DNA of 64,000 nt, taken from assembly GCA_003116975.1 (NCBI GenBank), contig BGKB01000193.1, forward strand, positions 1-64,000, written 5' to 3'. Below the pieces are notes generated by a model. That model ran no database searches and was not told where the DNA came from. It saw only the letters and a program-made list of their open reading frames with translations. The stretch is from Aurantiochytrium sp. KH105 (Eukaryota > Sar > Bigyra > Thraustochytrida > Thraustochytriidae). Positions 21,810 to 47,157 of this stretch are shown one piece after another; position 1 is the first letter of the stretch; the number at the start of each line of letters is the position of its first letter. Made by a program: the position numbers and the translations under genes.

Positions 21810-24800
21810 ATGGAGGCCGCGGCGGAGGGCGCGCGGGTGAGCGCGTGGGACGTGGCGCGCGTGGAGGCGCTGCTGGAGGCGGGCGAGGAGACGCGGCGCG
21901 AGGATGAGCAGCGGCGGCATGGCCAGGACGAGCAGAGCCGAGGGGGAGGAGGACGCCCGCACGTGCACGTGCTCGTGGCGGTCCCCGGAGAGGACGACGA
22001 CGGCGACGGTGGAGCGGAGGGGCAGGGCGGCGCCGAGGAGGAGGCGAAGGAGCGGCGCAGGAAGCTCGGCCAGGCCGTAGCGGAGGAGCTCAAGACGAAG
22101 AGCGTCGCGCTCGCAGAAAGGGAAGTCGAGGTACTGGTCAGGGACGCTTGCGGCGCGGACGCTGCGAGCGGCGCGGACGCTGCGAGCGAGGCCGCAGCCG
22201 GAGGAAGACGGCAACAGCTGATCGTGGCGACGGGGACGGCGGGGCTGGAAGACGACGCTGGCGACGCGAGGGGCAAGCCAGATATCCTTCTTTGGAGTCT
22301 GGCGTGGAAGAGATTCGCAGTGTTCCCGGCCAATGAGGAGCTCCCCGAGCCAAGTGAACTCGCGACGCTCGTCGAACTGAGTGGCCCATCTCCGCCCGAC
22401 ACGTCCAACTGGCGGTGCCTTAGCGATGAAGACGTACGCGGTATGCGCGAAGCGTGGTCAGAGGAAGACCTCACTGCCCTACACAGCAGCCTCGTAGACG
22501 GAATCTTTCTTCGCTCCGGAGGCAGACCCTGGCAGAACGCCTCTCCGTACGTGCTGACGCACTTCGCGCGCCACATGGTCGCTGCCGACCGGCGCGCTCA
22601 GGTTTACTTTCTCGTGGTAAACGTAAACTGGGTGCTTGCCAAGCTTCTTTGCAACGAGGATGCCGTCTTTCGTAGCCTTGTGGACGTGGATCTGACAATC
22701 GCAGAATCCGAAGCCCCGCAATGCGTCAGCGCCATATCACGCGCCGTTCGTAGCTCGCGTGCCCTTGTCCTGAAGACAGACCCTGCCCACAGAAAACAGC
22801 TTGCCAGCGAACTACTGTGGAATAAGCTTGCCGGGGTACAAGCCGGAGGCGATCGCTATTTCCACATGTTTGTGCACAACCTCTCTTCACTGCGAAAACT
22901 TCTCGCTGGACAGAGTGGCGGACCCTGTGCGCGCTGGCCTGTTCTTGCAAGCGCAATGGATCCCCTCATGCATCGCTATAAAGGTCTCGATCTCGGCTTT
23001 TTGCAATCCATCTCTGGCACGGGCCGTCCCCAGCGCTTTGCCTGCGCGGGATCCAAGGGCATCTTAGCGCTTGTGTCTTCTGAGACGGGACACATTCTCT
23101 CCTCTACGCCAGCGCACGCTGGTTGGGGCATCAACGGCCTGCAATTTGTCCCCGCGCTCGATGTCCTCGTTTCGGCCTCGCTGGACACGACCTGCAAGCT
23201 TTGGCGCCTCAACGAAGCGAGCGAATTTGAGGACGTGGCCACCTTTGCCGAACACAAGGACTCTGTTCGAGCGCTCTGCTGCACGGGTTCATTTGCGGCC
23301 TCTGGAGCAGACGATGGCACGGTCCTTGTTTGGAGCCTGCCAGACTGCAAAGTCTTGCATAGCTTTCAAAATGCTCACCAAGGTTGGTGCCTCGACGTGG
23401 ACTTGGCCATGCCGCAGGATTTCCCAAGCTCCGAAGATTACCTGCTACACGTAGCGAGCTGCGCCGACGATGGACTTGGGCATGTCTGGATCAACCTGCG
23501 TTCGGCCGACAATCCTGACCCGATCGTGCTTCGTGGCCATTCGAACAATGTGACAGCCATCCGTTTCCTCGGCCCGGCCACTGCGGAGCAAGCTTCTTCG
23601 ATGCTGCGAGTTGCCACGGGATCGGCAGATCTCACAATTCGGATTTGGGGTCTCTCCGACTGGAACGAAGGCTCGAGCACCAGCGTGCAGACACTCGTCT
23701 CCCTTGCTCAACACAAGGGCGAGATCCGCTCTCTGTGCGTGTGGAATGACCTCCTTGTTTCCGCATCGTCCGATCGCACTCTCAAAGTCTGGCATATTCC
23801 AGAAGATACAGGCGCTGCTGGCGCAACGATGGTCGCTGATCTCGTTGGTCATGCCGACGCTGTCAATGCCATTATTCGTGTTGATGAGCAATTTAGCTCT
23901 TCAGAGGCTGCAGGACAGAGCGGCTTCGCCTTTCTTAGCGCTAGCGATGATAAGTCCGTGCTCTGGTGGGATGTTGAAGGCCTCGAAGAGGAGACGTCCG
24001 CGCTTCGCACACAGCAGCCGGATGCGGGTGGTGAGTCTGACATCGCCGGACACAGCGAGGCGCCCACCGAGGGGACAGAAAGCGAGAGCGAGAGTGATGA
24101 GCACCAGCTCCGCAAAGCAACCGTGACCGCCCTCTCGGTGACTCCTGAGCACCACATATATGGATGCAAGACGGGGACTGTCTTTGTTGTTGAAGCGTCG
24201 ACAGGCCTTGTTGCGCAAAATATCAAGGCGCACGCCGGAGAGGTGAGCGCAGTTTGTGCCAACGACAATGTGGTTGCAACGGGGAGCGGTGATCAAACCG
24301 TCATTCTTTGGGACAAGCAAACGTGGAAACAGATTTGTAGCTTTGGGGCTCATATCTCTCGCGTGGAGGCCTTGCGCATTGATGGCAACCTACTCTTTTC
24401 GGGTGGGCGTGACAAGTTCGTGCACGTGTACGATCTTGAGACCTGTAAGATGGTGTTCCGACTTCGAGGACACAAGGATACTGTCACGGCGTTTTCTGCA
24501 GTAGGCGGAATCGCTGCGGTGAATCTCGAAAAGGTGTTTCTCTCCGCCTCAGCAGACAATACCATTCGTAAGTTTCCAGCCAGGGTCCCCCCCTATTATC
24601 ATTTAAAAAATTTGATAGGCAGGCGCGCACACGCGCACGAGTGGGCAAAGGGGAAGAGAGGAAATGGGAAGAAGGGGATGCGGCGAGGGTACAAGAAGAA
24701 TTTGTGAATAAGTGTGACTGACGTCTGAGAAATAATACGAGAAAACAGGATGCTGGAATCTGGACGATGGTCTAGAGATCCGTATGCTCACAGGGCACGA

Positions 24801-25428
24801 GGCCAGCGTTCAAGGCGTCGAACACCTTGGCCCTGTCGAGGACAAGGAAGTTGTTCTCTCTTATAGCTCAGATGGCTCAATTCGTACGTGGGATTTGGTG
24901 TGGGGTCAGCCACTCCGCGTCTTGCAGTCGTTTACTTGCCCTGTGCTAGGAATGCAATTGACGGCCTCGCGCCAGCTCGTCTACGCATGGACTCGTGCCG
25001 GCCAAGTCGGGGCCTGGGACGTTGTCACGGGCGAGAAAGTGTTTTCCTTTCAGGCCCCGCAAAGCGATGCAGCAGCCTTGGTCGACCCAGACCATGTGTT
25101 CACCGCAGGCGCTCTTCTCGACCGCAAAGATGCGCCCAATCTTGTCATTTGTGGATTAGCGCATGATCAAGGGGCATTGCTATTGCAGGTTCCCTCCTCG
25201 AATGCGCCAGAGGAGAAGGCTATAAACGACGTCGTCATGGTGCTCGATTCTCGCTCCTCCTACGGCCAATTCGACCATCCGTGGTTTATCGGACCTATTG
25301 AACAAATCGCCTTTGCCAATCGACATGCGAGTAGTGCTATATCGACGACGGATTCTAGTGCATCGCAATGCTCTTTCATCGCCGTATTCGCTGCCGCTGG
25401 CGTTGCGATGCTCGATGTCAACGTATGA
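21810..25428 (+). CDS. WD40-repeat protein, two exons
   Basis: CDS is join(21810..24567,24749..25428), 1145 residues. The N-terminal ~180 residues are acidic and helical with a probable coiled coil. Residues ~180-400 form a helical region with a Y-F-L-V-V-N-V-N-W-V-L-A-K-L segment resembling helical linkers that precede WD40 domains in NLR/Apaf-like proteins, but no nucleotide-binding domain is present. From about residue 400 to the end there are many WD repeats (V-S-A-S-L-D-T-T-C-K-L-W, A-T-G-S-A-D-L-T-I-R-I-W, V-S-A-S-S-D-R-T-L-K-V-W, A-T-G-S-G-D-Q-T-V-I-L-W), enough for two propellers. The exon junction restores a repeat reading D-N-T-I-R-C-W-N-L. It is likely an assembly scaffold; the specific partner is unknown. 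Confidence 0.9.
24568..24748 (+). other. Spliceosomal intron of the WD40 gene
   Basis: 181 nt from GTAAGT (24568) to ACAG (24748), phase 1. Joining C at 24567 to GA at 24749 gives CGA (Arg) and completes a WD repeat whose second half (C-W-N-L-D-D-G-L, then M-L-T-G-H-E) lies in the second exon. Unspliced RNA stays open for 45 more codons with a Lys/Arg-rich tail and stops at 24707. Confidence 0.93.
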
Positions 25429-25591: not shown

Positions 25592-28500
25592 CTAAGACGA
25601 TGAAGAGGAAGAAGTAGAGTTTGCGAGAAGACCGTCCTCGAGTACCATGACAAACTCCTCAAAGTCCTTGCAACGATTCTTGCTCGTCTTGGGACAAAAG
25701 TACTGCGAAGCGAAAAAGGCATCGGTAACGCAAACGCCGAGAATGGTCGCAAAAATACGCAGCTCCCAGCGCTTCGATGCAAGGCACCCGTCAAGGTTCA
25801 AGAGCTCGTGCTGATAGTAAGAGTGCAGGTCGATGGTCGAGGCGTTCGGATAGTATTCGGCAGACATGGCGTCGCGCGGAATCTCGATCGCAGCGGAAGC
25901 ATTCGCGCTGTTAAGACTCTTGCGCCGTTTCTTGAGGCGAGGGGCGCCGGCGCCTGTTGTGCCACATGTCGAGACGAGTGGCTTGGGCTTGCCATCATTC
26001 CACCCGGCGGCATACGTGGTAACCCCTGCGATATCCGCTTGCAAGAACACGGAGTCGCCGCGCTTGGCGTATTCGTGCTCCTGGACGATGTACTCCTGCG
26101 GAAAGAGGTCGTCGGCGTGCTTGACTTGGCCCATCATGAAGAGGCCCATATTCTTCTTCAAGTGAACAGCGGATTCCACAGAGGCGAGCAATGGGCTCGC
26201 AATTACGGTCCGGCCCGAGTCGGCCACGGGTTCTGCAAGACGCATGAGGGTGGCCGTTGTCCTCTCGCGTCCGACAGCGTCAAACTTTCCTCGAAATGCG
26301 CCAGCAACGTCTACAAGATCAAGTTGGACCGTCATGATCGTGTCACAGCAGCACAATCCAAAAAGATCAACACCAAGGGGCTTGCCCGCGCGTTTGATTT
26401 TCTTTGCGTGCAAAGGATTGTCCACAAACCTTTCGTCGGCGTTGTTCCACTTGGAGAGCATCGAGTCACCATGAAGGCGTGCACCAGGGAGCATGACTGC
26501 CTTACGGTGCTCATTGAACCACTGCACAAGAGGCAACACGTTCTTCAGCGCGGCGACTGAAGCGCTCGCAGCAGCCTGTTTCGCGTTGGGGGTCGCGCTT
26601 GCGGCGGACTGATTCTTTTGCTCGCTAGCAAGGTCCACAAACGAGAGAGAAGCGCAAATGTGCTTGAAACGCTCGAGCTTCATGAAACGCGACAAATTCG
26701 GAGTCTTGTATGCAACGTGCGCACTGTCCACCCAGAGAGAAGACCGCGAAACGCGAGGAGAGTGCGTATGCGCGAGGACGACGCCAAGATACGTAAACAG
26801 ATCCTTCTTAGTCAGCGCAGGCAACCCATGGTGCTTGAGGCGCTCCGAAGTGAAGCGCAAAATTTTCTTCGTGTTCGAGTCCCCGAGAAAGAATGCCAGG
26901 AAATAGTCCATCGGTGAACGGTCCATGTTATCGGCCTTACCGTGATCGAACTGGATCGCAGGCTGCCTCTTGAATCCCATCGAATTTCGAATGTCTGTTT
27001 TGACACTTTCCGCGATGACCCATTCAACCTCTGTCCCAACATCGATGGAAGCGCCGAGTCGTGCACTCTTGGCTGCGTCGCTTTTCTGCGGCACTGCTGC
27101 GGCGGTCGGGCCTGCAGACGCACTCTCTGCCTCCATCGACTTTCTCTTATTGTCTTTCTTTTTCTTCTTGGTTGTTGATGCCTCTTTTTGGTCGCCGTTC
27201 TCTGCGGCGCCGGCATTGTCATCGTCCGTGGAATGGTCAACAGAGTCCTTACGCTTTCTCTTCAAGGCGCCGTTAGGAGGGGCGGCCGCGGATTCGTGCC
27301 CAGATGCATCCATTGCCGTAACGGGCCGCAACCATCGAGCGCCCAGTTTGACCCGGGCCGTGCTTCCGTCTGGCATCTCAAAATCAACGACTCGAGAACG
27401 CTTGATATCCTCAATAATTTTCCCCTTGATCAGGTTCGAATCCGCGTCCGCGTCTTTTACGGACGTGCCGTTCTTGAGGGACTGAACGATGCTTAGACTG
27501 GCACATGCCTCCGTTCCACGTGAGAAATTTTTAGATCCGACGCTCGCCGCTTGCTCTGACGCCGGCGCGCTCTTGGGTGCAGCAGGCGCACTCTTGGGTG
27601 CAGCTGGTGCAGTTCTTGTGCTGTCGGTACTCTTGGCGACAGCGGGGACGGAAGCAGGGCTCTTTTCATTGCCGGTCATGGTTTCGCTTGCGCCCTCCCC
27701 TGCCTCGGCAAGCCAGCGCGGATTGATCGCATTTTCCTCCGTAGATCCGTCGGGAAGAGAGAACTTTACTACACAAGAGGCAGCCCCTTGATACTTTACG
27801 ACCACGCCTTTCAAGCTTTGAGTTCTCCAGTCAGGACCGAGAATGCGTCGTAACTTTCGTCCGTCGAAGGCGCGTTTCGCTAAGCAGCTGACGTTGGCAC
27901 CGATTGGAAACTTTTTCGTTGGCCCCTTTTTCGCTGCGACCTCGGGCTCCGTGCTCTTGACGTTCTTCTTGTTCGCGTTACCCTTGTCACCAGATTCCTC
28001 AGTGTTGACACCACTATCGGAATCGCTCTCACTATCGCTCTCGCTCTCGTTGCCGCTTCCACTGCCACTGTCGCTTCCGCTGCCACTGTCGCTTCCGCTA
28101 CCACTATCGCTGTCACTGTCATTGCTGCTGGAGTCGTCATCGCTGTCACTGTTGCTGTCGTTCTTCTTTGATTCTTCTTCATTGGCCTTGGCGTCCTTCT
28201 TCTGCTTGTCTTTCTTCTTTTTACCATTTGGAGCTGCTGCGTCTGCTGCATTCTTCTCTGCAGGCTTTGAGGTGGGTGCGGCGGACGCGGAAGCTGCATT
28301 GGCAGATGCAAGCGATGCTTTAGCGCGCTCTTGTGCAGACTCTAGAGTGGAAGCCTTCAATGCTTCGATGTCTCCAATTGGGTGAAGCTGGCGACTTGAG
28401 ATGTCGCGCTCTTCAACTCGACCTTGACCGAAATTTACTTTCACCCGACGGGCATATCGAAGAATAGCTGTGACAGATCCGGGAACCACGACGGACCTCC

Positions 28501-30169
28501 ACGACGGGCCAAAAATTGCCTTTCCCTCTCGGGCCTTGAGAAACTTTTCTGCAGCGACGCAGACAGGGTCTCCGATATCAAACTTCTTGCCTCCTTTGGA
28601 GGTCTTGGTGGCTGTCGCTGTCGCTGTCGCTGTTGTGGGCGCGGCGGCAGCGATGGCGCCTGAGTCACCCTCTACGGCATCCGAAGGCTTTTTCTTTGTC
28701 TTCTTCGCCTCCTTTGTCTTTTTACCATGATCGTCTGGCTGAGAAAGGCCAGCGCTCGCTGGAGATGGCGTGGACTCCTTTGCCTTTTTCTTTGGCTTGG
28801 AGACGGCCTTGTCTCTCTCTTCGTCGTCCTCTTCACTACTGTCGCTGCTGCCATCGTCGCTGCTGTCGCTGTCGCTGTCGCTCCCCTGGGCATCTTCCTC
28901 GCCACTGCCGCTGCCGCTGCCGCTCTCGCTCTCGCTTTCTTCGCTATCGGACTCCTGGTCATCAGCATCCGCCACGCGGCGTTTCTTTGCACTCGCAGAA
29001 CTTGGCTTCGAAGAAACTTTCGACGCGCCAGATGCTGACGCCTGCTGGCCCTTAGACTCAATAGGAGTGAGCAGTCTCGAACCAAGCTTAACCCTGGAGG
29101 TCCGGCCGCCGGGAAGATCGATCTCCACAATTCGCGAGCGTTCCAGCACCTCGATGACCGTTCCCTCTATCCTCTTCTTCGTCCAGCTCGGCCCAAAGGC
29201 TGCCCGCCCTTCCCTTCCCTGAAATACGCGTTTAGCCTCCACAGAGACGCGGGATCCGACCAGGTTCTTCTTGGTGTGAGGCGATGCCGCAAGTGCCGCA
29301 GTTTGTGAAGCGGAAATCTTCTTGACTGGAGTCGACGGTTTGCTGGTAACCGTTTTGGAAGGCTTTGGCGCGGGCTCCTCGCTGCTGTCGCTTTCGCTCT
29401 CTTCATCGTCTTCGCTCGCGTCACTGTCGTCGCTGTCGTCATTCTCGCTGCTCTTGACACTTTCGTCGCTTCCACTTTCTTCCTCGCCGCTTCCGCTTTC
29501 TTCCTCGCCGCTTTCGCTGCTACTGCTTTGCTCTTCGTCGCTGCTCGCAACCTCGCGCCGCTGCTTTGTCTTGGCGGGCTTGGCAGAAGAAATCGCCTTC
29601 TGCATCCGCGCTTTCTTGGCTGGACTCTTCTTCGGTGAATTGACAGCCTTTTCAGAATGGGAGCGGTCGTGCTTGGAGGGTGACTTGGGAACCTTTGCCT
29701 TGGGCGAAGCAGGTTCGTCAGGTCGTTGCGAACGTTCCTTGACCTTGCCGTTGCTGACCTTACTTTCGGTTTCGACTTGACCATTCTCTTTACTCCCGTC
29801 GCCCGCTCCATTAGCTCCACGAAGCGCTCGCAGTTTTGCCTTTTCCTCCTTTCTCTTCTTCTTGAGTGCCTTTCGTTCGAGCTTGGTCAACTTCTCACGC
29901 GCAGTCGCTGCGTTGAGTGCTCTGGAAAACTTGTTGAGCTTGCTGATGGTGTACTTGCTGATGATCTTTTGGCCATCAATCTTGAACTCTGCGACTCTCG
30001 CATTCGCAGAGGCGCCCGTGACAACGCCTTGATAGATCTCTGACCTCCATTCTGAGTCTGGACCAAGCAGCTTGTCTGCCTTCGCGGCCGCATCTGGCGT
30101 ATTGAAGATCATCGTGCCAGGTAATGTGATCGTGTCGCCCTTCCGGAAGAACATATCATTCTTGCCCAT
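25592..30169 (-). CDS. PiggyBac-transposase-derived protein with five SH3/Tudor-like modules
   Basis: 1525 residues from the ATG at 30169. Five similar ~65-residue modules occur at about residues 8-80, 300-370, 527-598, 751-823 and 883-955. Each follows G-x-x-V...F/A...G-P-S/D-W, an I/L-x-G-x-V strand, R-x-V-x-F/I, and R-x-L-x-P at the end. They are spaced by Ser/Asp/Glu- and Lys-rich disordered linkers. The C-terminus (about 1040-1520) matches piggyBac DDE_Tnp_1_7: P-M-D-Y-F-L-A-F-F-L, W-F-N-E-H-R, L-F-G-L-C and a final Y-Y-P-N-A-S region. Transposase Asp positions look lost: H-G-D-S-M-L replaces I-D-E-x-M-I, and V-I-A-S-P replaces the C/T-D-N box. No piggyBac terminal repeats with TTAA are evident near the gene. 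Long intact frame plus lost catalysis suggests a domesticated nuclear, chromatin-binding protein (inference). Confidence 0.88.
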   Translation of the reverse strand: MGKNDMFFRKGDTITLPGTMIFNTPDAAAKADKLLGPDSEWRSEIYQGVVTGASANARVAEFKIDGQKIISKYTISKLNKFSRALNAATAREKLTKLERKALKKKRKEEKAKLRALRGANGAGDGSKENGQVETESKVSNGKVKERSQRPDEPASPKAKVPKSPSKHDRSHSEKAVNSPKKSPAKKARMQKAISSAKPAKTKQRREVASSDEEQSSSSESGEEESGSGEEESGSDESVKSSENDDSDDSDASEDDEESESDSSEEPAPKPSKTVTSKPSTPVKKISASQTAALAASPHTKKNLVGSRVSVEAKRVFQGREGRAAFGPSWTKKRIEGTVIEVLERSRIVEIDLPGGRTSRVKLGSRLLTPIESKGQQASASGASKVSSKPSSASAKKRRVADADDQESDSEESESESGSGSGSGEEDAQGSDSDSDSSDDGSSDSSEEDDEERDKAVSKPKKKAKESTPSPASAGLSQPDDHGKKTKEAKKTKKKPSDAVEGDSGAIAAAAPTTATATATATKTSKGGKKFDIGDPVCVAAEKFLKAREGKAIFGPSWRSVVVPGSVTAILRYARRVKVNFGQGRVEERDISSRQLHPIGDIEALKASTLESAQERAKASLASANAASASAAPTSKPAEKNAADAAAPNGKKKKDKQKKDAKANEEESKKNDSNSDSDDDSSSNDSDSDSGSGSDSGSGSDSGSGSGNESESDSESDSDSGVNTEESGDKGNANKKNVKSTEPEVAAKKGPTKKFPIGANVSCLAKRAFDGRKLRRILGPDWRTQSLKGVVVKYQGAASCVVKFSLPDGSTEENAINPRWLAEAGEGASETMTGNEKSPASVPAVAKSTDSTRTAPAAPKSAPAAPKSAPASEQAASVGSKNFSRGTEACASLSIVQSLKNGTSVKDADADSNLIKGKIIEDIKRSRVVDFEMPDGSTARVKLGARWLRPVTAMDASGHESAAAPPNGALKRKRKDSVDHSTDDDNAGAAENGDQKEASTTKKKKKDNKRKSMEAESASAGPTAAAVPQKSDAAKSARLGASIDVGTEVEWVIAESVKTDIRNSMGFKRQPAIQFDHGKADNMDRSPMDYFLAFFLGDSNTKKILRFTSERLKHHGLPALTKKDLFTYLGVVLAHTHSPRVSRSSLWVDSAHVAYKTPNLSRFMKLERFKHICASLSFVDLASEQKNQSAASATPNAKQAAASASVAALKNVLPLVQWFNEHRKAVMLPGARLHGDSMLSKWNNADERFVDNPLHAKKIKRAGKPLGVDLFGLCCCDTIMTVQLDLVDVAGAFRGKFDAVGRERTTATLMRLAEPVADSGRTVIASPLLASVESAVHLKKNMGLFMMGQVKHADDLFPQEYIVQEHEYAKRGDSVFLQADIAGVTTYAAGWNDGKPKPLVSTCGTTGAGAPRLKKRRKSLNSANASAAIEIPRDAMSAEYYPNASTIDLHSYYQHELLNLDGCLASKRWELRIFATILGVCVTDAFFASQYFCPKTSKNRCKDFEEFVMVLEDGLLANSTSSSSSS

Positions 30170-34477: not shown

Positions 34478-37400
34478 ATGGCGCGAGGGTTCGTGGCGGG
34501 AGGTCTCGCCTTTGGCGGCTTTGGGTTCATATGCGCGATCCTTACAGCGATCGTGCCAATGTGGCTCGTAAGCCGCACCGAGCTCGTCGATCAGTTCTGC
34601 TGGTTTGGCGAAGGCATCTTCTTCACGAGCTACCGATGGGGCGATGACATTCCAGCGCTCAAACTTGAGTGCTCGCCGCAAGCAGGCCAAGCGCGGTCCT
34701 CCTTTGAGGCCTACTGCGCCCCAGTCACACACAATCCAACCCTCGATGGCGGCAGAGTCCCAATGACCCCCACGTTTCGTGACGAAATGTGCACGAGAAC
34801 AAACGCTGCCCAAGTTCTTATTGTAGCCGCAATTGCTTTGGGAGGAGCTGCGCTTGCTTGCGGAATGCTCGCTCACGCAACGTCTCGCTTCAAGGCGCAA
34901 CTTCATAGTAGCATTGGCGCCACGCTCTGCGCCGCGACCGCCTTGATGCTAGAAGTTGCCACCTTCGTCGTCATGCAAACTTCCCCGCTGTTCGATGACG
35001 AGCACATTGCGGCGCTCGCCTCTGGCTTCGGACTCCAGTACAAGGGCGTCAGCTGCATGTATCAGATGCCTTCGCTTCACTCAATTTGGGAGCAACGCAA
35101 TTTCGATGGTCGAATGCAATGTCTCTTTCCTGGCCCGAGTTTCGCACTGGCAATTGGAGCCATGATCGGTTCACTTTTTGCAAGCATTCTTTTTGGCCTC
35201 AAGTGGCACGAAGCTGCATTTGCACGCCGGGTCACGCGCGCGCATCGAAAAGAAGTACCGCGGGTCCTCGTTGACTCGCACTCGCCCCTCTTTGGCGCGA
35301 ACCTCCCAGCTTCACCGTACCTCGCGCACTCGATCGAGTCTTCCTGCGAAGAACAACAGCAATCTTTCGCAGAGCGCAGGGCCGGAACACACGCAGACCA
35401 TCGAATGGACGAAGCTGCTTTGAATCTTCGTGAGAGACTTTTGCCTCCGAGCACGGACGCGAGCGCCGGGGCAAGCCAATACGAAATCCTGCAAGCGGCT
35501 TCGGAGCACGAGATCCTTTCACATTTTCGCTCTGACCGGCACTATTCATTGTATGGGGCCTTTCGTCGACGCTGGCGAAAGCGCGGCGCCTGCGTGCGAC
35601 ACCTCATCAATACCATTCCTCCGCTTCTCAACATTACTCATGCGGTCGTCCTTGGTCTCTGGATCATGAACGGGACGGCTTTTGGAAACCTGATTCGCGT
35701 CGACGAAATCAAACTCCCCCACAATCTTCACTTCGACGACACTTCCGCAGCGCAGCGGCTTGCCGGTCTCCTTCTCGAATTCGCTGGCAGAGAGTCGCTC
35801 CAAGGCACCATCCCGTCTCGGCAAGAGTTGATGCCGAGTAATTTTACTGTGATACAGCACATGATCGACTTTAGCCCAATCACGACACTTCAAGCGCTGT
35901 TCGATGGTGGAGCGGTCTTTATCGGGCTCACCATTCTCGTGTCCATCTTTATTTGGCCGTGCATCAAAGTGCTCATTTGGTCCATACTTTGGTACGCTCC
36001 CGCCGATGAAGTCCTTCGCGGTCGTCTCTATTCATGGCTCGATGCGCTGGGTAAAATCTCTCTCGCAAATCTTTACATTCTTGCCATTCTCTGCGTTTCC
36101 AATTATTTCAAACGCGACATTGTTGTACCGTGGTTTCTCGCTCCGCTCATCATTCGACGATCCCATGCGCTCCGTGTGCGCATTTCGTTCGCTATTCAGC
36201 CCGGTTTCGGCACCTACGGATATGCGATCTCTGCCATTCTCTCGCTACTCATGGGCCAGGCAAACCTTTCGGCTCATCGTCTCGCAAAATCTTGGGAAGA
36301 GAGACGCCGCGAGGAATCAACAAGTCGTAAAGGCGAAACGCGGCGCTTGGTCATTCGAGGTTCTTCTTCTTCCTCCTCTTCTTCGTACTCGGATTTTGAC
36401 AATGAACATGGCCAGGCAGAGCAAGACGATGGAGCTCTGCCCGCTGGCAGGCTCGATGCAAGCGGTGGGGGAACGATCCTCCTTTCAAATGAAGAGGCGG
36501 CCATTTCTCCAGAATGCCAACAGCCCATGTCAGAGCGACGCTCTTTGGAAGATTCCCTGGACGTGCAAGATACTCTCCGAGTTCCTACAGATCCAAATTT
36601 AGATTCTCGTCACGACATGGAACTCGCTGGCGACGCAATGTGGACCGAGCGCTCTGTCGAGCGCCAGGTTGCCTTTTATCGGCTGCTCGGTGCTGAGGCT
36701 TGCCAGAATCATATTTTCTCGCCAACGCCAGGAACCTTTTACCGATGCACTCTTTTTGGCAAGGCAGTAATGCTCACATTACTTGTGACCGCCTTGGCAC
36801 TTTTGGGTGTTGGCCTCTCCACACCCATTATCACGCTTGAGCGCTCTGGAATTGTGGGGGATATTTTAATCCCCGAAGAGTCAAGAAACCTTACGCTGAG
36901 TGTCGTCGCCCTTCCTGGCGTTATTCAGGGCGCAGGACTGAACGGCGACCCCCCTGGTGCCCTGAGTTTTGGCATCGGCTTCTTTGTCATTGCAATGCCT
37001 CTCGTACACCTGGTGGGTTTGGTGCTCCTTTGGCTCGTGCCCTGGGCTCCATCCGACCAGATGCAGTTTATGCGCGCCATCGAGGTGCTCAACGCGTGGA
37101 GCGCTGTCGACGTATTTTGTCTCATGATTGTCGCCGCATCTTTCGATTTGCGTGCATTTACGACGCATTTGATCGAAAACGGCGGCTTTCTCCCGCTTGA
37201 TCAGTACCTGGAAAAACATATTCCTCACCTCGGCGCTTTCACAATCCAAGAGGAAAGGCTCTTGCCCGGCTTTGGAATTTTAGTTGCTGCCGTGGTACTT
37301 GAGCGCTTTGTAGGTCATGTAGTACGGTTGCTCTTCGCAACCATGATTGCTGAGCGACGCGGCCTTCGCGAGATTGCTCTGCAGGCTCGCAAGTTCTCCT

Positions 37401-37666
37401 CTGTTCTGCACGAAATCCGTGCGCAGTCATTAGCTGGTGAAGCGCAGCAACAACGAGCCCCAATGCTGTCGAATTCGCTTCTCCGCACGAACATGGCAAT
37501 ACTGAGTCCCACAACGCGATACGTACTGGCTTCGGCTGTTCCTTCATATTTCTATGCAGGCTTGCCCCTCTGTCTCTGGCGCGCGCTCGCCGCGTGCGGA
37601 ATGCTGCAGCGCGACTACACATTTGACGAGAGCAACCTTGGCGTTGAGCCGCTGCAACTGTCGTAA
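34478..37666 (+). CDS. Large polytopic membrane protein with two PqiA-like domains
   Basis: 1062 residues. The first ~260 residues have four hydrophobic segments in a claudin/PMP22-like layout: a helix at the start, a Cys- and Trp-containing loop, then three helices. A hydrophilic linker follows. Residues ~360-600 form a first PqiA-like unit with L-Y-S-W-L-D-A-L-G-K-I-S-L-A-N and a closing P-G-F-G-T-Y-G-Y. A disordered Ser/Asp/Glu linker spans ~610-740. A second PqiA-like unit covers ~760-1062 (W-L-V-P-W-A-P-S-D, A-I-E-V-L-N-A-W-S-A-V-D-V-F, L-P-G-F-G-I-L). In bacteria PqiA works with PqiB in membrane lipid trafficking; eukaryotic homologues are poorly understood, so the role here is unknown. 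Clean ATG in AATAGCCATGG. Confidence 0.85.
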   Translation: MARGFVAGGLAFGGFGFICAILTAIVPMWLVSRTELVDQFCWFGEGIFFTSYRWGDDIPALKLECSPQAGQARSSFEAYCAPVTHNPTLDGGRVPMTPTFRDEMCTRTNAAQVLIVAAIALGGAALACGMLAHATSRFKAQLHSSIGATLCAATALMLEVATFVVMQTSPLFDDEHIAALASGFGLQYKGVSCMYQMPSLHSIWEQRNFDGRMQCLFPGPSFALAIGAMIGSLFASILFGLKWHEAAFARRVTRAHRKEVPRVLVDSHSPLFGANLPASPYLAHSIESSCEEQQQSFAERRAGTHADHRMDEAALNLRERLLPPSTDASAGASQYEILQAASEHEILSHFRSDRHYSLYGAFRRRWRKRGACVRHLINTIPPLLNITHAVVLGLWIMNGTAFGNLIRVDEIKLPHNLHFDDTSAAQRLAGLLLEFAGRESLQGTIPSRQELMPSNFTVIQHMIDFSPITTLQALFDGGAVFIGLTILVSIFIWPCIKVLIWSILWYAPADEVLRGRLYSWLDALGKISLANLYILAILCVSNYFKRDIVVPWFLAPLIIRRSHALRVRISFAIQPGFGTYGYAISAILSLLMGQANLSAHRLAKSWEERRREESTSRKGETRRLVIRGSSSSSSSSYSDFDNEHGQAEQDDGALPAGRLDASGGGTILLSNEEAAISPECQQPMSERRSLEDSLDVQDTLRVPTDPNLDSRHDMELAGDAMWTERSVERQVAFYRLLGAEACQNHIFSPTPGTFYRCTLFGKAVMLTLLVTALALLGVGLSTPIITLERSGIVGDILIPEESRNLTLSVVALPGVIQGAGLNGDPPGALSFGIGFFVIAMPLVHLVGLVLLWLVPWAPSDQMQFMRAIEVLNAWSAVDVFCLMIVAASFDLRAFTTHLIENGGFLPLDQYLEKHIPHLGAFTIQEERLLPGFGILVAAVVLERFVGHVVRLLFATMIAERRGLREIALQARKFSSVLHEIRAQSLAGEAQQQRAPMLSNSLLRTNMAILSPTTRYVLASAVPSYFYAGLPLCLWRALAACGMLQRDYTFDESNLGVEPLQLS

Positions 37667-40324: not shown

Positions 40325-43300
40325 TTACTCCACGAGAATGACGTCGTCGTAGCCGTCATCATCGTCGTCGTCGTCGTCATCCACCTCATCTCCGTTTCCA
40401 TCGTCACCATCATCATCGTCGTCGTCGTCTTCCTCCTCCTCTTCCTCTTCCTCTTCTTCCTCCTCCTCCTCTTCATCATCGTTTCCGTCGTCGTCGTTCC
40501 TGTGGGAGATATGCGCGACGTTGTTGTAGTCCTCATCTTCGTCGTCAACGTCGTCGCCAACCTTTTGGTCATTCTCCTCATCGTTGTTATCGCCATCATT
40601 GCCGCCAGCAGCAGCATGGTCAACGTTCTCATCGTCGACAGCGCCGTCATCGTCGTCGTCATCATCGTCATCGTCGTTATTCTGATTGACGTTGCCACCA
40701 ATGTGAACCTGTTCATCATCGTAGTCACCTCCATCGCCGTCACCGTCGCCAACGTTTTCATCGCCGTCATCAGCGGCAGCTGGTAGGCTATTGTCTCCTT
40801 GCTGTTGCTGACCACCTGTGTGCTGCGTTGGGTCCAAATTCTGGGCAAAACCAGACTGCGCCGTCTCTGCGCGGTCTTCTCGCTCGGATTGGCTCGCCAG
40901 CGATGCCTGCTGAGAAGTCGACGAAGACGAGGTCGCTGCTGGCGCCGCAGACGATTCCGTGCTCTTGCCAAAGCCGCCAAACACAGACGAGGACCCAAAG
41001 CCACCACTTGATGGCTTTGTGGACCCAAAGCCAGATGCGGGCGCGCCAAATGCAGACTTGGAGAACGCGGATGAGGACGTTGACCCAAATCCTGACGATG
41101 CACCGAATCCAGGAGACGAGGTCGACGACGTGCCAAAGCCCGAAGACGCACCCACGGACTTTCCAGCAGTCCCCTGTGCACCGCCAAACCCAGAGGAAGT
41201 TGAAGTAGATGAGGAAGACCCGAACTGACCAAACGATGTCGTCGATGGTTTGAATGTAGATGCCCCAAATGAAGATTCGGGAAAGCCTGAGGCCTTGCCT
41301 GAGGTTGACTCGGAGCCCGAGGCCCGTTTTCCAAAAGCCCCGAATCCGCCCGAGGTCACTCCCGCGCCGAAGCCAGGTCGAGAGCCCGTTGACGATACGC
41401 TCGCCGACGAACTGGACGATGAAGGCTGCTGCACGTCATCCTTCTTGTCGGGCTGCCGCGCACCCTTGCCAAAGGCAGCAGCAGCCTGGTTACTCGTCGT
41501 TCCAAACCTCTTTGCACGAGCGGCAATGCGATCCTCGTCGCTTGGCGCCCCAGTTGCCGATGCCGAGGTACTTGCGGAAGCCTCATTTTGGCCTGCTGCA
41601 GCGGCAGCCTTGGCCTTGGTGATGGACTGTTTACCCCCGGCGCCAGCGCCAGGCTTGCCGCCAAACACAGTGCCTTGTGACTGCTGCTGCAGCTGCTTTT
41701 TTTGCAAGAGGCGAGCTTTCATTTCTGCAATCCTGACCTGAAGACCCTCTTTGCCCTTTGCGTCGGCGGCGGCAGCAGACGTAGCCGCTGCCGAGGCAGA
41801 CGAGCCACCTGAGGCCTCACTGCTAGAGCGCAGTTTCTTGGTCGGCGGATCTGCGGTGCCAGCAGTGCCAGAGAGCATCTTGCCTTGGGCAAGAGATGTA
41901 CCTCCACTCAAAGCTGCAGCGGAGTCATTCGTCGGGTCCTTCGGGCTAAAAGCAGGCGCGTCAGCATTAAGCTCACGCTTCCGCTTGCTCTGCTGGAGGT
42001 TGCTGTCTGCTGCTGCTGCCGCTGCCGCGGCTGGCGGCTGAGCAACGTTACTTGCTGACGTGGAAGAAGAGGAGGGTGCTTGTTGCGCAGATTGCCGAAG
42101 CTTTGTGATGAGATCATCCTTCTCCTTGAGCTGCTTCTCGAGTGCACTCACTGCAGCGCGTGAGGAGGCAAGGTCAGGACCCGCAGAAGGCGAGGCCGAC
42201 GAGGAAGCCTTGGCCTGCTTCAGTTCCTCGGCCTTACTCTCGAGCTGTTTGTTGAGTGAAGCAATCTCCTCGTTCTTCTTCTCGATCTCCTTGCCCTTGT
42301 TCTGGGCGTCACTTCGATGTTTAATCGCCAAGTCCCGGATCTTGATTCGTTTCGTCTCCGAGTCGGCGTGCGCCTTTTCTGCGTTGGTCTTGGCAGCACT
42401 AGCTTGCTCGAGCTCGGCGCGCAGCTTGCCGCTCTCGGTGCGGGCCTGTTCCAAGTCGGTGCGGAGTTTCGCCATTGCGTTGTTGAGACGCTTCTGCTCT
42501 GCAACAGCCTTTTGATGATCAGCGGGATCAATCTTGTCTCCAAAGCGCTGCATAAGACCGTTGTACCGCTCCTTGAGCGCCGCGCACTCTTTCTCCAGGG
42601 CTGCCTTGTCAGCTTCCAAAGCGACAATGCGCGAGTCCTGCTTTGACTTTTCTGACGACGACGGCATCAGCTTGGCCTCAAGTTCGGCAATACGTTCCTC
42701 GGCGCGCTCTCGCGCGCGCTGATTGTCCTGGGCCTCCTGCTGCAAGAGAACGTTGACTTTGCGCAACATCGTGGTGTCTTGATCGGCAGCCTGCAATCTG
42801 CGAAGCTCTGTGAGGGAGACCGCGCGACCTTCCTCGCCAAGACGTTGCACCTCTTTTTGCAGACGTTCCTTTGTGACCTTGAGGTCCTCCTTGGTGCGCG
42901 CAAGGTCTTGTTGGGCGCGCGACAGCTCGAGGGAAATCTCCTCGGCCTCGACAAGCTTACGATCACGTTGCCGCTGGGCGATCTGGAGAAGTTCTCGCAG
43001 CCTTTGCACTTCGGCGTCCGTCTTGCTTTCTTCCGACGAAGCCGAAGTGTCGCCCTGCTGATCGGCGGACTTCTCGGCAAGGGCGCCGGAACTTTGCGCC
43101 TCGCGGATTCGGGCATTGAGTTGGTCAATTTGGCCACTCAAAAGCTTGTTCTGACGGCTGTACTCGGCAACCTCGGTCGAGGCGCGGGAGCGTTGGTCCT
43201 CGAGAGCCAGACGGTGTTCTTCCGCGGCCTTGCGCGCAGCTTCGAGGGAGCTCTTGAGGCCTTCCACCTCGCTGACAGCTTTGTGAGCCTGCTCCTTGGC

Positions 43301-46300
43301 GTCCTTGGCCTCTTGGCGCGCAGCATCGAGCTCGCGCTTGGCTTGCGCGTGCAGCTGAAGCTCGCGGTCGTAGGTGGTCTTGGCGTCTTCCGCGGCTTGG
43401 CGTTGACGCTTGGCCTCCGCTTCCGCTGTAGCTTGCAGCGCCTGCGCAGAACGGAGCTTGCTTGCAGCCTCGGCGGAAGCAGCCGTTGCCTCCTCTGCAG
43501 TCTTTTGCAGGCTTTCTACCTTGGCGGTGAGTTCTGCCGTGCGCTTCGACGCCTCCTGCGTGGCGGTCTCGAGCTGCGCGGCAAGTGAGCTGCGCTCGCG
43601 CTCCAAGTTGGCAACTGCTTCCTCCTTTTCCCGCTTCATCTTGTCGCTCGCCTCGCTAAGCTTGTTGAGAGCCTTTTCGTTCTCGGCGGCGATCGCGCGG
43701 TAAGTCTCCACGTCCTTGGTACGCGCCTCAAGATCGCGCTGCAGCGCAGCGAGCCGGTCGCTCTGGCCATTGGTAGACGCGCTCGCCGATGAGGAGGATG
43801 CCGATTCGGCAGGGGTCGCGGCGGCGCCCCGTGTTCGCAAAAGCTCGCGCAGATCCTTGAGCTGGTCCTCGAGCGCCTTCTCGCGGACAGTTGCAGCCTC
43901 AAGCGAGGCCTTGGCCTCTGCCGCCTGAGCGTTAGCGTCGCGCATTGCATCTTCGGCACGCGTGCGCGCGTTCTCTAGCGTCTTGACTCGCTCCGAAAGC
44001 TCAATGCTGGAGGTCATGGCGCCTTGGCGCTCGTCGCTAGAATTAGCGCGCAAATTCTCCAGGAGCTCCTCGAGACGGTCGTTCTCCTTGGAGAGCCGCT
44101 TGTTCGCTGCGGAAAGCTCTGCAACGCGGCCTTCTTCCATGCTGCTGTAAGCGTCGAGCATCTTGCGCTGCGTGTTGAGCTGCTCGTGAAGACGCTCGTT
44201 TTGCTGGCGCAAAAAGTCCACCTCCGCTTCCTTTGTGGCGCGACTCGCCTCCCACTGCGAGCGTTCCTCCTCGAAGCGGTTCACCTGGTCGCGTAGCTCG
44301 GTAAGCTGCTCGCTGCTGGACGAATTTGCCTTGAACGAATCCATGAGCTGCTGCGTGACACTTTGATGGGACTCTCTGGCTCGCGCGAGATCGCTTCGCA
44401 GATCCTCAATGTACCGCTCGAGAGACTCGACCTGTTTGGTGGCCGAAGCAAGATCTGCCTTGCTCTCGATCGCTTCTGCGCGCGCCTTGGAAAGCTCATT
44501 TCGCCGCTCGTCAAGCTGGTCCTGGAGAGCCTTGGTATCCTTACGCATCTCTTCCCGAAACTCGGCATATTCCCGTTTGATCGCAGCCGCAGCAGCTGCG
44601 TCTGCCCGAGCGGGGCTCTGAAGCGACATGGGTGTCCCCGCCGCGATGGAGCCGGGCGTGGCTGCAGAGCCTCCATGCATGGGCGTGGCTGGATTCTTGC
44701 CCGGGGTTCCCGCCACGGATTTGGCCGGGGTGGGTGCCTGGCCATCCTTGAGAAGAGCCACACCTTGACCGACAGATGCTGCGCTTGGTACGCCGTCTTG
44801 CAAAAGGCCGGTCTCAAGAGCCTGTTGGTTGCTTTGCATGCAGAGGGTGCGGTACATGTTGCGCTGCATCACAATGGCGCGGACCACGGCTTCTTGACGC
44901 TTGCGATCCTCACGACTACGCTCGAGTTCTTCCTGGCTTTCGCGCAACACCTGCTCAGTGGCATCGTTGACGCGTTCCTGCAATTTCGCTTCAGCTTCTT
45001 CCTGCTGGATGACAAGATCGCGCACGACGGCGAGGAGCTTCATGTGCTTCTCCTGGAGCTCATCAATGCCGCTGTACGTGGCAAGCTCCTGCGACACGAG
45101 ATCCGCGGCAGTGGAGTTACCGCCAAGTTTGCTAAGGTAGCCCGTAGCCCGAGGGGGCGCCACCAGCGGGCTCGGGGCAGCGCGGCCATTCCGAGCTTCC
45201 TGTTGCGCCCGCAAGAGCTGGCGTACTTGGCGCGTGAGGTCAGATACCTGCTGCTGAGTCTTTGCCAGAGCATCCTCTGCACGATCGCGATGACGGTTCG
45301 AGGAGGAAAGTGCGTCGCGAAGACGGGCACTCTCTTCCATGCTTTCGCTGAGTGCGTAGCTGAGGCGTTCGAGCTCCTCGACCTGGCGAGCGTGCTGGTC
45401 GTGCAACTCCTTGACACGAGGCGCCGTATGCTCCATATCTTCGAGAATGCGCGCCAAATGGCCCTTGAGACGGGCAATTTCGTCCTGGTCCGCGTGGCGC
45501 TCCTGGCGGGCCTTTTCAAGCTCGGTAAAGGCTGCCGTGAGCGAGATGCCGCGTTTCGCGAGTTCTTCGGTGGCAGCAGTTTGTGAAAGATCACCGATGC
45601 GAAGAATTTCCTCCGTTTTGCGCCTGACGTCCTCATCCTTTGCATTTCGGGCATCCTCGGCGGCCTTGAGCTCATTTTCGTGCTGTGTTTGAAGGTCGGC
45701 AATGTTCTTGGCATGATCGGCACGAAGTGACTCGAGACGCTCGATCTGCGCATGAATGATACTTTCCTTTTCGGTATCGTACTGATTAATCCGCGTTTCG
45801 AGAGCCTCGATGCGTTCTTCGTCCTCCTTCATGAGACGGGCACGCTCTTCATTGATTTCGCTTTGTTTGCGCGCAAACTCTTCGGTAGCTTCATACTTTT
45901 CCCGAAGACTGAGCAGCTCGTTGGCATGAGACCGTTGCAGCTCTGTGATTTCGGCCGCCTTGGCGTCAATCTGCTCGTTAAGCTCGATAATACGTTTCTC
46001 CTTTGCTGCAGCGACCTCATTGGCGTTGCCGAGACGAATGTCGGACTCATGCGAGGCCGAGGCCTGCGAGGTACGCAGATCGCGGATCTCTTCCGCCCGT
46101 TCATCGAGCATGGCACGGAGCCATTTGATCTCGCGCTCCTTGAGCTCCATTTTGCGTTCCCACAACGAGACTTCTTCCTTGGCAAGTTTGGACTCGTCCT
46201 GCGTGCGGGCCTCCTCGGTTTCAAGGGAGCGCTTTTGCTGTTCAAGATAGCGAGCGTTGAGGCTTTCGAGCTCCTCGCGAAGCTGGGTGGTGCTGGTCCG

Positions 46301-46630
46301 CATACGATGGGCAACCTCGTCGGCAGCATCAGCGCGACGCGTCGCGCGGTCGAGCTGATTCTTGAGGTCCGCATTTTCCACGCGGAGTTGGTTCACCTGC
46401 GACTCGAGCGAGCGCACCGTTTCGCCGAGCTCTGTGGCCTGCGAGCCTTGGCGTGCTTGTGCCTGCAGCCTGGCGTTTTCTTCGCGGAGCGCGGCTGTCG
46501 CTGCAGACTGCTCTTCGGCCTGGGCCTCGAGCTTGGCCAGGGCCTCTTCTGCCTTGGTCACAATCCACGAGGTGGCGGCGTCATCCTTTTGCGCCTTTTC
46601 GCGCTCCTCGTCGCTGAGAAACCCGGCCAT
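40325..46630 (-). CDS. TPR: TPR/Mlp-type nuclear basket nucleoporin with FG repeats and acidic tail
   Basis: 2101 residues from the ATG at 46630 (M-A-G-F-L-S-D-E-E-R); an in-frame upstream stretch is low-complexity leader. Residues ~15-1600 are almost continuous coiled coil. Family signatures are L-R-R-L-Q-A-A-D-Q-D-T-T-M-L-R-K-V-N-V-L-L-Q near 1300 and R-F-G-D-K-I-D-P-A-D-H near 1365, matching the TPR/MLP1/MLP2 region. TPR lines the nuclear face of the pore and takes part in mRNA quality control and export. From ~1640 to ~1900 there are about 18 Phe-Gly dipeptides (many G-F-G-x-x-S), unusual for a TPR. The last ~150 residues are Asp/Glu/Asn-rich, encoded by GAT/GAC/GAG triplet tracts. No intron is needed to read the frame. 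Confidence 0.92.
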   Translation of the reverse strand: MAGFLSDEEREKAQKDDAATSWIVTKAEEALAKLEAQAEEQSAATAALREENARLQAQARQGSQATELGETVRSLESQVNQLRVENADLKNQLDRATRRADAADEVAHRMRTSTTQLREELESLNARYLEQQKRSLETEEARTQDESKLAKEEVSLWERKMELKEREIKWLRAMLDERAEEIRDLRTSQASASHESDIRLGNANEVAAAKEKRIIELNEQIDAKAAEITELQRSHANELLSLREKYEATEEFARKQSEINEERARLMKEDEERIEALETRINQYDTEKESIIHAQIERLESLRADHAKNIADLQTQHENELKAAEDARNAKDEDVRRKTEEILRIGDLSQTAATEELAKRGISLTAAFTELEKARQERHADQDEIARLKGHLARILEDMEHTAPRVKELHDQHARQVEELERLSYALSESMEESARLRDALSSSNRHRDRAEDALAKTQQQVSDLTRQVRQLLRAQQEARNGRAAPSPLVAPPRATGYLSKLGGNSTAADLVSQELATYSGIDELQEKHMKLLAVVRDLVIQQEEAEAKLQERVNDATEQVLRESQEELERSREDRKRQEAVVRAIVMQRNMYRTLCMQSNQQALETGLLQDGVPSAASVGQGVALLKDGQAPTPAKSVAGTPGKNPATPMHGGSAATPGSIAAGTPMSLQSPARADAAAAAAIKREYAEFREEMRKDTKALQDQLDERRNELSKARAEAIESKADLASATKQVESLERYIEDLRSDLARARESHQSVTQQLMDSFKANSSSSEQLTELRDQVNRFEEERSQWEASRATKEAEVDFLRQQNERLHEQLNTQRKMLDAYSSMEEGRVAELSAANKRLSKENDRLEELLENLRANSSDERQGAMTSSIELSERVKTLENARTRAEDAMRDANAQAAEAKASLEAATVREKALEDQLKDLRELLRTRGAAATPAESASSSSASASTNGQSDRLAALQRDLEARTKDVETYRAIAAENEKALNKLSEASDKMKREKEEAVANLERERSSLAAQLETATQEASKRTAELTAKVESLQKTAEEATAASAEAASKLRSAQALQATAEAEAKRQRQAAEDAKTTYDRELQLHAQAKRELDAARQEAKDAKEQAHKAVSEVEGLKSSLEAARKAAEEHRLALEDQRSRASTEVAEYSRQNKLLSGQIDQLNARIREAQSSGALAEKSADQQGDTSASSEESKTDAEVQRLRELLQIAQRQRDRKLVEAEEISLELSRAQQDLARTKEDLKVTKERLQKEVQRLGEEGRAVSLTELRRLQAADQDTTMLRKVNVLLQQEAQDNQRARERAEERIAELEAKLMPSSSEKSKQDSRIVALEADKAALEKECAALKERYNGLMQRFGDKIDPADHQKAVAEQKRLNNAMAKLRTDLEQARTESGKLRAELEQASAAKTNAEKAHADSETKRIKIRDLAIKHRSDAQNKGKEIEKKNEEIASLNKQLESKAEELKQAKASSSASPSAGPDLASSRAAVSALEKQLKEKDDLITKLRQSAQQAPSSSSTSASNVAQPPAAAAAAAADSNLQQSKRKRELNADAPAFSPKDPTNDSAAALSGGTSLAQGKMLSGTAGTADPPTKKLRSSSEASGGSSASAAATSAAAADAKGKEGLQVRIAEMKARLLQKKQLQQQSQGTVFGGKPGAGAGGKQSITKAKAAAAAGQNEASASTSASATGAPSDEDRIAARAKRFGTTSNQAAAAFGKGARQPDKKDDVQQPSSSSSSASVSSTGSRPGFGAGVTSGGFGAFGKRASGSESTSGKASGFPESSFGASTFKPSTTSFGQFGSSSSTSTSSGFGGAQGTAGKSVGASSGFGTSSTSSPGFGASSGFGSTSSSAFSKSAFGAPASGFGSTKPSSGGFGSSSVFGGFGKSTESSAAPAATSSSSTSQQASLASQSEREDRAETAQSGFAQNLDPTQHTGGQQQQGDNSLPAAADDGDENVGDGDGDGGDYDDEQVHIGGNVNQNNDDDDDDDDDDGAVDDENVDHAAAGGNDGDNNDEENDQKVGDDVDDEDEDYNNVAHISHRNDDDGNDDEEEEEEEEEEEEEEEDDDDDDDGDDGNGDEVDDDDDDDDDGYDDVILVE

Positions 46631-47157
46631 GTCGCCGCCCGCGCGAGCGCTCGCGCGCGTCGAGAAAACCGAAGGCGAGAGAAGGAAAAAAAATCCAAAA
46701 CCAACCGCGGGTGGGCGCTCTCGCGCGCTTGCCCCGCCTCGCTCGCGCGCGGGCGGGGTGCGGGGGGACGCGGGCGCGACGAGGCGCGCAAGCGGGTGCG
46801 AGCCCCTCGGCCGGCCTGCCTCCTTCTGCGCTGTGCGGCGCAGCGCGGCGCGGCGCGGCGCGACGCGACGCGCGCTCTGCTCGTCGGGCGTCTGACGGCG
46901 AGCGGCTGTCGTTTGACGTTTGTTTTTTTCGAATTTTTCGAATTTTTTAGTTTTTAGTTTTTCTTGGTTGGTTTTGAATTTTCGAAGGGCGGCAGTGCAG
47001 GGCGCCATAGTGCACTGGCAGCGCGCCAACCTTTACTTGTAGAGTCTCGCGGCAAGTCGGTTATGGCCTCCTCTTCTCGCCTGGGTTGCAAAGCAGAGCA
47101 GTGGCAGAGCAGAGCAGAGCAGAGCAAAGCAAAGCAAAGCAAAACTGCAGCGCGACC
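46631..47157. promoter_or_regulatory. Divergent promoter region between TPR and OSGEPL1/Qri7
   Basis: 527 bp between divergent starts. It has a GCGGC pentanucleotide tract (46838-46872), an AT-rich patch with repeated TTTTTCG/TTTTTAG (46920-46975) and an AGAGC/AAAGC tract (47105-47143) ending 14 bp before the plus-strand ATG. Confidence 0.5.

Follow-up and report, generated by a model that had tools for sequence, protein, structure and literature searches.

Why would a transposase fold be kept once its cutting activity has, very probably, been lost? A gene of the thraustochytrid Aurantiochytrium sp. KH105 lets this be asked, since the part of the protein that holds its broken active site is more strongly constrained than the other parts. 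The gene, here called paralog A, lies in the first 64,000 nucleotides of contig BGKB01000193.1 (C193:1-64000; the window) and encodes a piggyBac-derived protein of 1525 amino acids (25592..30169, minus strand), recognized from the list of open frames and from selection. Two paralogs, B and C, lie elsewhere in the genome. Searches of this genome covered 76 Mb in 367 contigs and scored the best candidates only; copy numbers are lower bounds.

Active site and constraint of paralog A

A first-pass annotation, made from the window alone, had described one frame of 1525 codons over 25592-30169. The frame is indeed open, reading from 30169 to 25592 on the minus strand, which the annotation had left unstated; stop codons interrupt the corresponding frame on the plus strand. 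The same annotation had assigned a piggyBac domain, and this was borne out by a match to the whole PF13843 profile (positions 1-349 of 349; E value [E] 1.6e-28; 100.5 bits against a curated cut-off of 22.4) at residues 1085-1485 (25715..26917, minus strand). Sequence searches of the PDB, run with the transposase part of A and with alignment A3, returned no transposase, and a structure of this part predicted from one sequence had a predicted local distance difference test (pLDDT) score of 33.2 and was not used. By eye, no C-terminal cysteine-rich domain was seen in A or in any of three frames read over the 0.9 kb that follows it.

We checked the catalytic region against piggyBac in PDB entries 6x67 and 9c0f. 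PGARLHGD of A aligns gap-free to PGAHLTID of piggyBac (6x67), which places the first catalytic aspartate, D268, at D1235 (26465..26467, minus strand), where it is kept. In contrast, VIASP aligns to ITCDN, and the D346 position is S1325 in both alleles (26195..26197, minus strand). Both catalytic boxes had been thought replaced; the second is, whereas H-G-D-S-M-L had been read out of register. At the D346 position, the alignment has Q in B and E in C. Eight profile comparisons were made at this position: three show the register given for A and one that for C, and the other four are short or unrelated pieces. Because all were of low probability (0.05-21%), the register rests on the gap-free blocks. 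The alignments are split over the third aspartate, D447. The MAFFT alignment of all paralogs and a global profile alignment of A and B both put D1447 there (25829..25831, minus strand), but when only A is aligned with piggyBac, two MAFFT alignments put a gap there, and D1447 is thus a possible equivalent. In the all-paralog alignment B has M at this position and C is without that stretch. A serine stands in A where D450 would be. By sequence alignment, then, A lacks an intact three-aspartate (DDD) triad of D268, D346, and D447. One triad mutation abolishes the activity of Trichoplusia ni piggyBac in vitro, as cited in PMC6143343 (here and below, papers are cited for the parts of their text at hand). 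Given that its second catalytic aspartate is a serine, A very probably no longer cuts DNA.

The transposase domain is nevertheless under strong purifying selection and is the most constrained part of A. Between the two alleles, the ratio of nonsynonymous to synonymous substitution rates (dN/dS) was 0.076 in the transposase part (0.034-0.149; 488 codons), 0.185 in the modules that precede it (375 codons), 0.36 in the linkers (652 codons), and 0.21 overall; four neighboring genes, used as a yardstick, gave 0.30, 0.21, 0.03, and 0.16. Intervals for single modules were wide, that of module 1 including values above 1. The strongest constraint in A falls on the part that is missing one catalytic aspartate, and what selection preserves there is not the known chemistry but some other role. 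Codon usage, which the first-pass annotation had called biased, was not relied on as evidence, being only moderately above that of antisense frames: likeness to three neighbors was 0.89 for A and 0.92 for its transposase part, compared to 0.68 to 0.81 for antisense frames, and the modules by themselves scored 0.68, as low as wrong frames.

Paralogs, haplotypes, and mobility

PF13843 matched the genome six times, and every match exceeded the cut-off. The matches fall at three loci, each present twice: locus A on contigs C193/C261, B on C95/C278, and C on C80/C11. In B and C the match is limited to roughly the first 100 of the 349 profile positions. Both paralogs (L008:3295-5667 and L009:3145-5562 on the minus strand; L010:3518-6592 and L011:3529-6585 on the plus strand) have broken catalytic positions and a Cys/His-rich C-terminus, which weakly resembles ribosomal protein S29/uS14 (PDB profile search; E 0.04). 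A and B are about 26-27% identical, and C was matched in pieces only. Protein searches with the three transposase parts found no further place among the best candidates, nor any piggyBac-type gene with an intact triad; viral contigs yielded no relative of the A transposase part. The transposase parts of C (dN/dS 0.23) and B (0.42) are both less constrained than that of A, and their Cys/His-rich ends gave 0.12 in B and 0.15 in C, with wide intervals.

Flanking DNA is colinear inside each contig pair (blocks of 89.5-97.3% identity), and matches to polyketide/polyunsaturated fatty acid (PUFA) synthases likewise occur in contig pairs. We therefore read the paired contigs as haplotypes, the alternative being two parental subgenomes. 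The PUFA-synthase match is itself to TIGR02813, at 930 bits under a cut-off of 1010; of 14 control genomes, 11 likewise gave matches to this model, in none above the cut-off. With the long single-frame genes, these matches offer no more than a hint of a labyrinthulomycete host.

Signs of an active transposon were not found. TTAA sites in the 3-kb flanks on either side were compared ungapped, in one haplotype per locus, and bounded no inverted repeats: the best of 2 pairs around A matched at 5/16 positions (control mean 5.0), the single pair around B at 3/16 (control mean 4.3), and the best of 3 pairs around C at 3/16 (control mean 5.6). Near-identical dispersed copies of A were likewise absent among the best candidates. 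A shows the features of a domesticated gene, namely the same position in both haplotypes within colinear flanks, few copies, and purifying selection despite a broken triad. The proposal of domestication is thus well supported, and we read A as a host gene of piggyBac transposase descent.

Repeated modules and neighboring frames

N-terminal to the transposase domain, a module of about 70 residues occurs five times in A, four times as a clear repeat and once in degenerate form, where five like modules had been proposed. With module 2 (residues 300-372; 29054..29272; placed by alignment, genome search, and predicted structure) as the query, the genome search returned module 3 (residues 527-600; 28370..28591; E 1.8e-8), module 4 (residues 750-825; 27695..27922; E 6.1e-7), and module 5 (residues 880-950; 27320..27532; E 1.1e-6), the last over its second half only, together with the counterparts on contig C261, the other A allele. 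A profile of the modules also covers modules 3 to 5, a further genome search covers module 3, and an alignment covers module 5. Paralog C carries one module (E 0.0015 with the module 2 query and 5.8e-6 with module 3), whose 80 codons show 2 synonymous changes and no nonsynonymous one.

Module 1 (residues 4-84; 29918..30160), placed by alignment and by a profile of modules 2-5, is recognizable only via that profile, at 11.7 bits as a 100-residue piece, 10.3 bits in the other allele, and 6.2 bits inside the whole frame. The best of 2000 shuffles of the piece reached 5.4 bits (1355 domain rows reported). However, the best of 1000 shuffles of the paralog B N-terminus reached 9.6 bits, close to the value for module 1 and a weak point of its score. 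The motifs said to be common to all five modules are more restricted: G-P-(S/D)-W occurs in modules 1-4 (with two extra residues in module 1; the other allele reads GPRW in module 2) and is absent from module 5, while R-x-L-x-P is confined to modules 2, 3, and 5. The linkers between the modules are without F, W, and Y and are rich in Ser, Ala, Lys, Asp, and Glu; by composition, linker 2 (residues 373-526; 28592..29053) and linker 3 (residues 601-749; 27923..28369) are acidic and Ser-rich. All of these features lie on the minus strand. An NCBIfam scan of A returned adhesin models only, on a Ser/Asp-rich linker (best E 2.2e-4, far under the cut-offs); we attribute these to composition.

In a Pfam scan no family fits the five modules, the best matches being two unrelated families at E 0.04, under their cut-offs; the Tudor profile gave no match at E up to 10, in a scan whose filters drop most weak matches. 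Among the best candidates scored in the genome, no module was found beyond A and C. Two other matches were set aside as chance, one of 16 residues on a viral contig (L054) and one on contig C44 (E 0.335). The latter falls in a 568-amino-acid frame (C44:175461-177165; L041) that reads by eye as a Tc1/mariner-type transposase. Given that the module has no Pfam family and was found in this genome only next to a piggyBac domain, it may be an undescribed domain. A tree of the modules is too weakly supported for dating their duplications.

The small barrel guessed at earlier agrees with a confident predicted model (pLDDT 85), which shows an SH3/Tudor/KOW-like fold for module 2. Its fold neighbors include the PHF1 Tudor domain with H3K36me3 and the PHF19 Tudor domain, but KOW, ribosomal, and cyanobacterial SH3-like barrels reach equal scores. 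The PHF1/PHF19 Tudor and NusG/Spt5 KOW domains are 11-29% identical to the module in the fold-comparison rows, and in contrast to them the module has a helix and then GPxW between strands 1 and 2. All five modules are basic (isoelectric point 9.4-11.2). At the positions matching the PHF1 aromatic cage, they are not consistently aromatic in alignments judged by eye. Since the modules are basic and no aromatic cage was recognized, their sequences would favor binding to nucleic acid or an acidic partner over a histone mark. The reading of a histone or DNA mark, as first suggested, thus finds no support here, the module moreover having been found in the genome only in A and C.

Three other parts of the window also hold frames of interest. 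Adjoining A, two WD40-repeat frames of 965 and 214 amino acids (21810-25428, plus strand) are perhaps two exons of one gene. A 1062-amino-acid frame (34478-37666, plus strand) has two stretches matching paraquat-inducible protein A (PF04403; E 7.3e-10), a family known from bacteria, here in a eukaryotic gene. A 2234-amino-acid frame (40325-47029, minus strand) matches the nucleoporin TPR and TPR/MLP1 profiles (E 6.2e-16 and 1.2e-12) and is likely a nuclear-pore basket protein.

Proposed roles and known systems

We favor, at about even chances, a reading in which A is a piggyBac-descended, non-cutting host gene whose product is a multivalent chromatin or DNA scaffold. The transposase part would most likely still serve as a dimerizing, DNA- or chromatin-associated core in a nuclear protein. 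The linkers, being Ser-rich, charged, and without aromatics, are probably flexible, and the basic barrels would probably make several weak contacts to nucleic acid or to an acidic nuclear partner. Because C has one module, and B and C have the Cys/His-rich C-terminus, the fusion of module and transposase probably predates the split between A and C; in A, the module would afterwards have been multiplied and the Cys/His-rich C-terminus lost. A bolder extension, which we entertain only tentatively, is that the three loci, anciently split non-cutting piggyBac descendants, form a standing chromatin or genome-architecture machine, in which one member grew lineage-specific basic barrels for multivalent binding and the transposase fold is purely a structural hub, in protists only distantly related to ciliates and vertebrates.

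These proposals have to be weighed against four others. Similarly to the Paramecium PgmL proteins, A could be a non-catalytic subunit of a multi-piggyBac complex, in which A, B, and C would assemble mutually or with a cutting partner to position or stabilize the complex. Three diverged paralogs, none with D at the position of D346, would fit, as would the PgmLs themselves, which are without a complete triad, can all interact with Pgm, and include one, PgmL4, that retains aspartates one and three, which may also hold for A (PMC6143343). The failure to find an intact-triad partner among the best candidates and the weaker constraint on B and C speak against it, and we regard this as a possibility well short of even. 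Histone-tail readers are expected more often to be acidic, and this, with the basic modules, the inconsistently aromatic cage positions, and the equal scores of KOW, ribosomal, and cyanobacterial barrels, makes it unlikely that the modules read a methylated histone residue in the manner of Tudor domains while a dead transposase anchors them on chromatin, the view of the first-pass annotation. The PHF1 and PHF19 Tudor neighbors would suit that view, as would the ciliate relative Tpb2, which binds methylated H3 via its cysteine-rich domain (PMC8086355).

Slightly less likely again is that A acts as a DNA-binding repressor or competitor of a once-active piggyBac family, its modules stemming from the transposon's own N-terminal part. 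In favor of this, the module was found in this genome only beside a piggyBac domain, and CSB-PGBD3 offers a precedent in binding MER85 elements, which its own transposase mobilized (PMC3459987); however, the PF13843 search found no active target family, in a search that did not extend to non-autonomous elements. That A is a decaying or still mobile piggyBac copy and no host gene is very improbable. Its PF13843 domain and single open frame would be compatible with this, but we reject an active or dying transposon on the dN/dS of the transposase part, the loss of D346 in both A alleles and at the other two loci, and the absence of TTAA-bounded repeats and near-identical dispersed copies in the searches above.

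The favored scaffold reading places A beside several known proteins. PgmL1-PgmL5 are non-catalytic domesticated piggyBac transposases with incomplete triads, a diverged paralog set like A, B, and C (PMC6143343), but they work with a catalytic partner, Pgm, and no such partner was found here among the best candidates. Pgm and Tpb2 have a histone-binding cysteine-rich domain, and the PgmLs, too, carry a cysteine-rich domain (PMC8086355), whereas A is without one and has barrel modules instead. Chordate PGBD5 is likewise domesticated, its DDD(D) motif being broken and terminal repeats absent; its gene, unlike that of A, contains introns, and the part of the source consulted mentions no barrel modules (PMC3902484). 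Transposition induced by PGBD5 has been reported (PMC4625184). CSB-PGBD3 of primates joins a piggyBac domain to another protein, binds DNA elements, and affects gene expression (PMC3459987), but acquires its CSB partner by alternative splicing, in contrast to the one frame with repeated small barrels of A. A literature search, judged by titles and abstract openings, returned nothing on piggyBac in thraustochytrids or on piggyBac joined to Tudor-like modules, and the domesticated proteins in the literature so surveyed come from ciliates and chordates. Non-catalytic domesticated piggyBac proteins are therefore already known; as far as that search reaches, what A, B, and C add is a further set, probably from another lineage, in which A has an array of modules and lacks the cysteine-rich domain.
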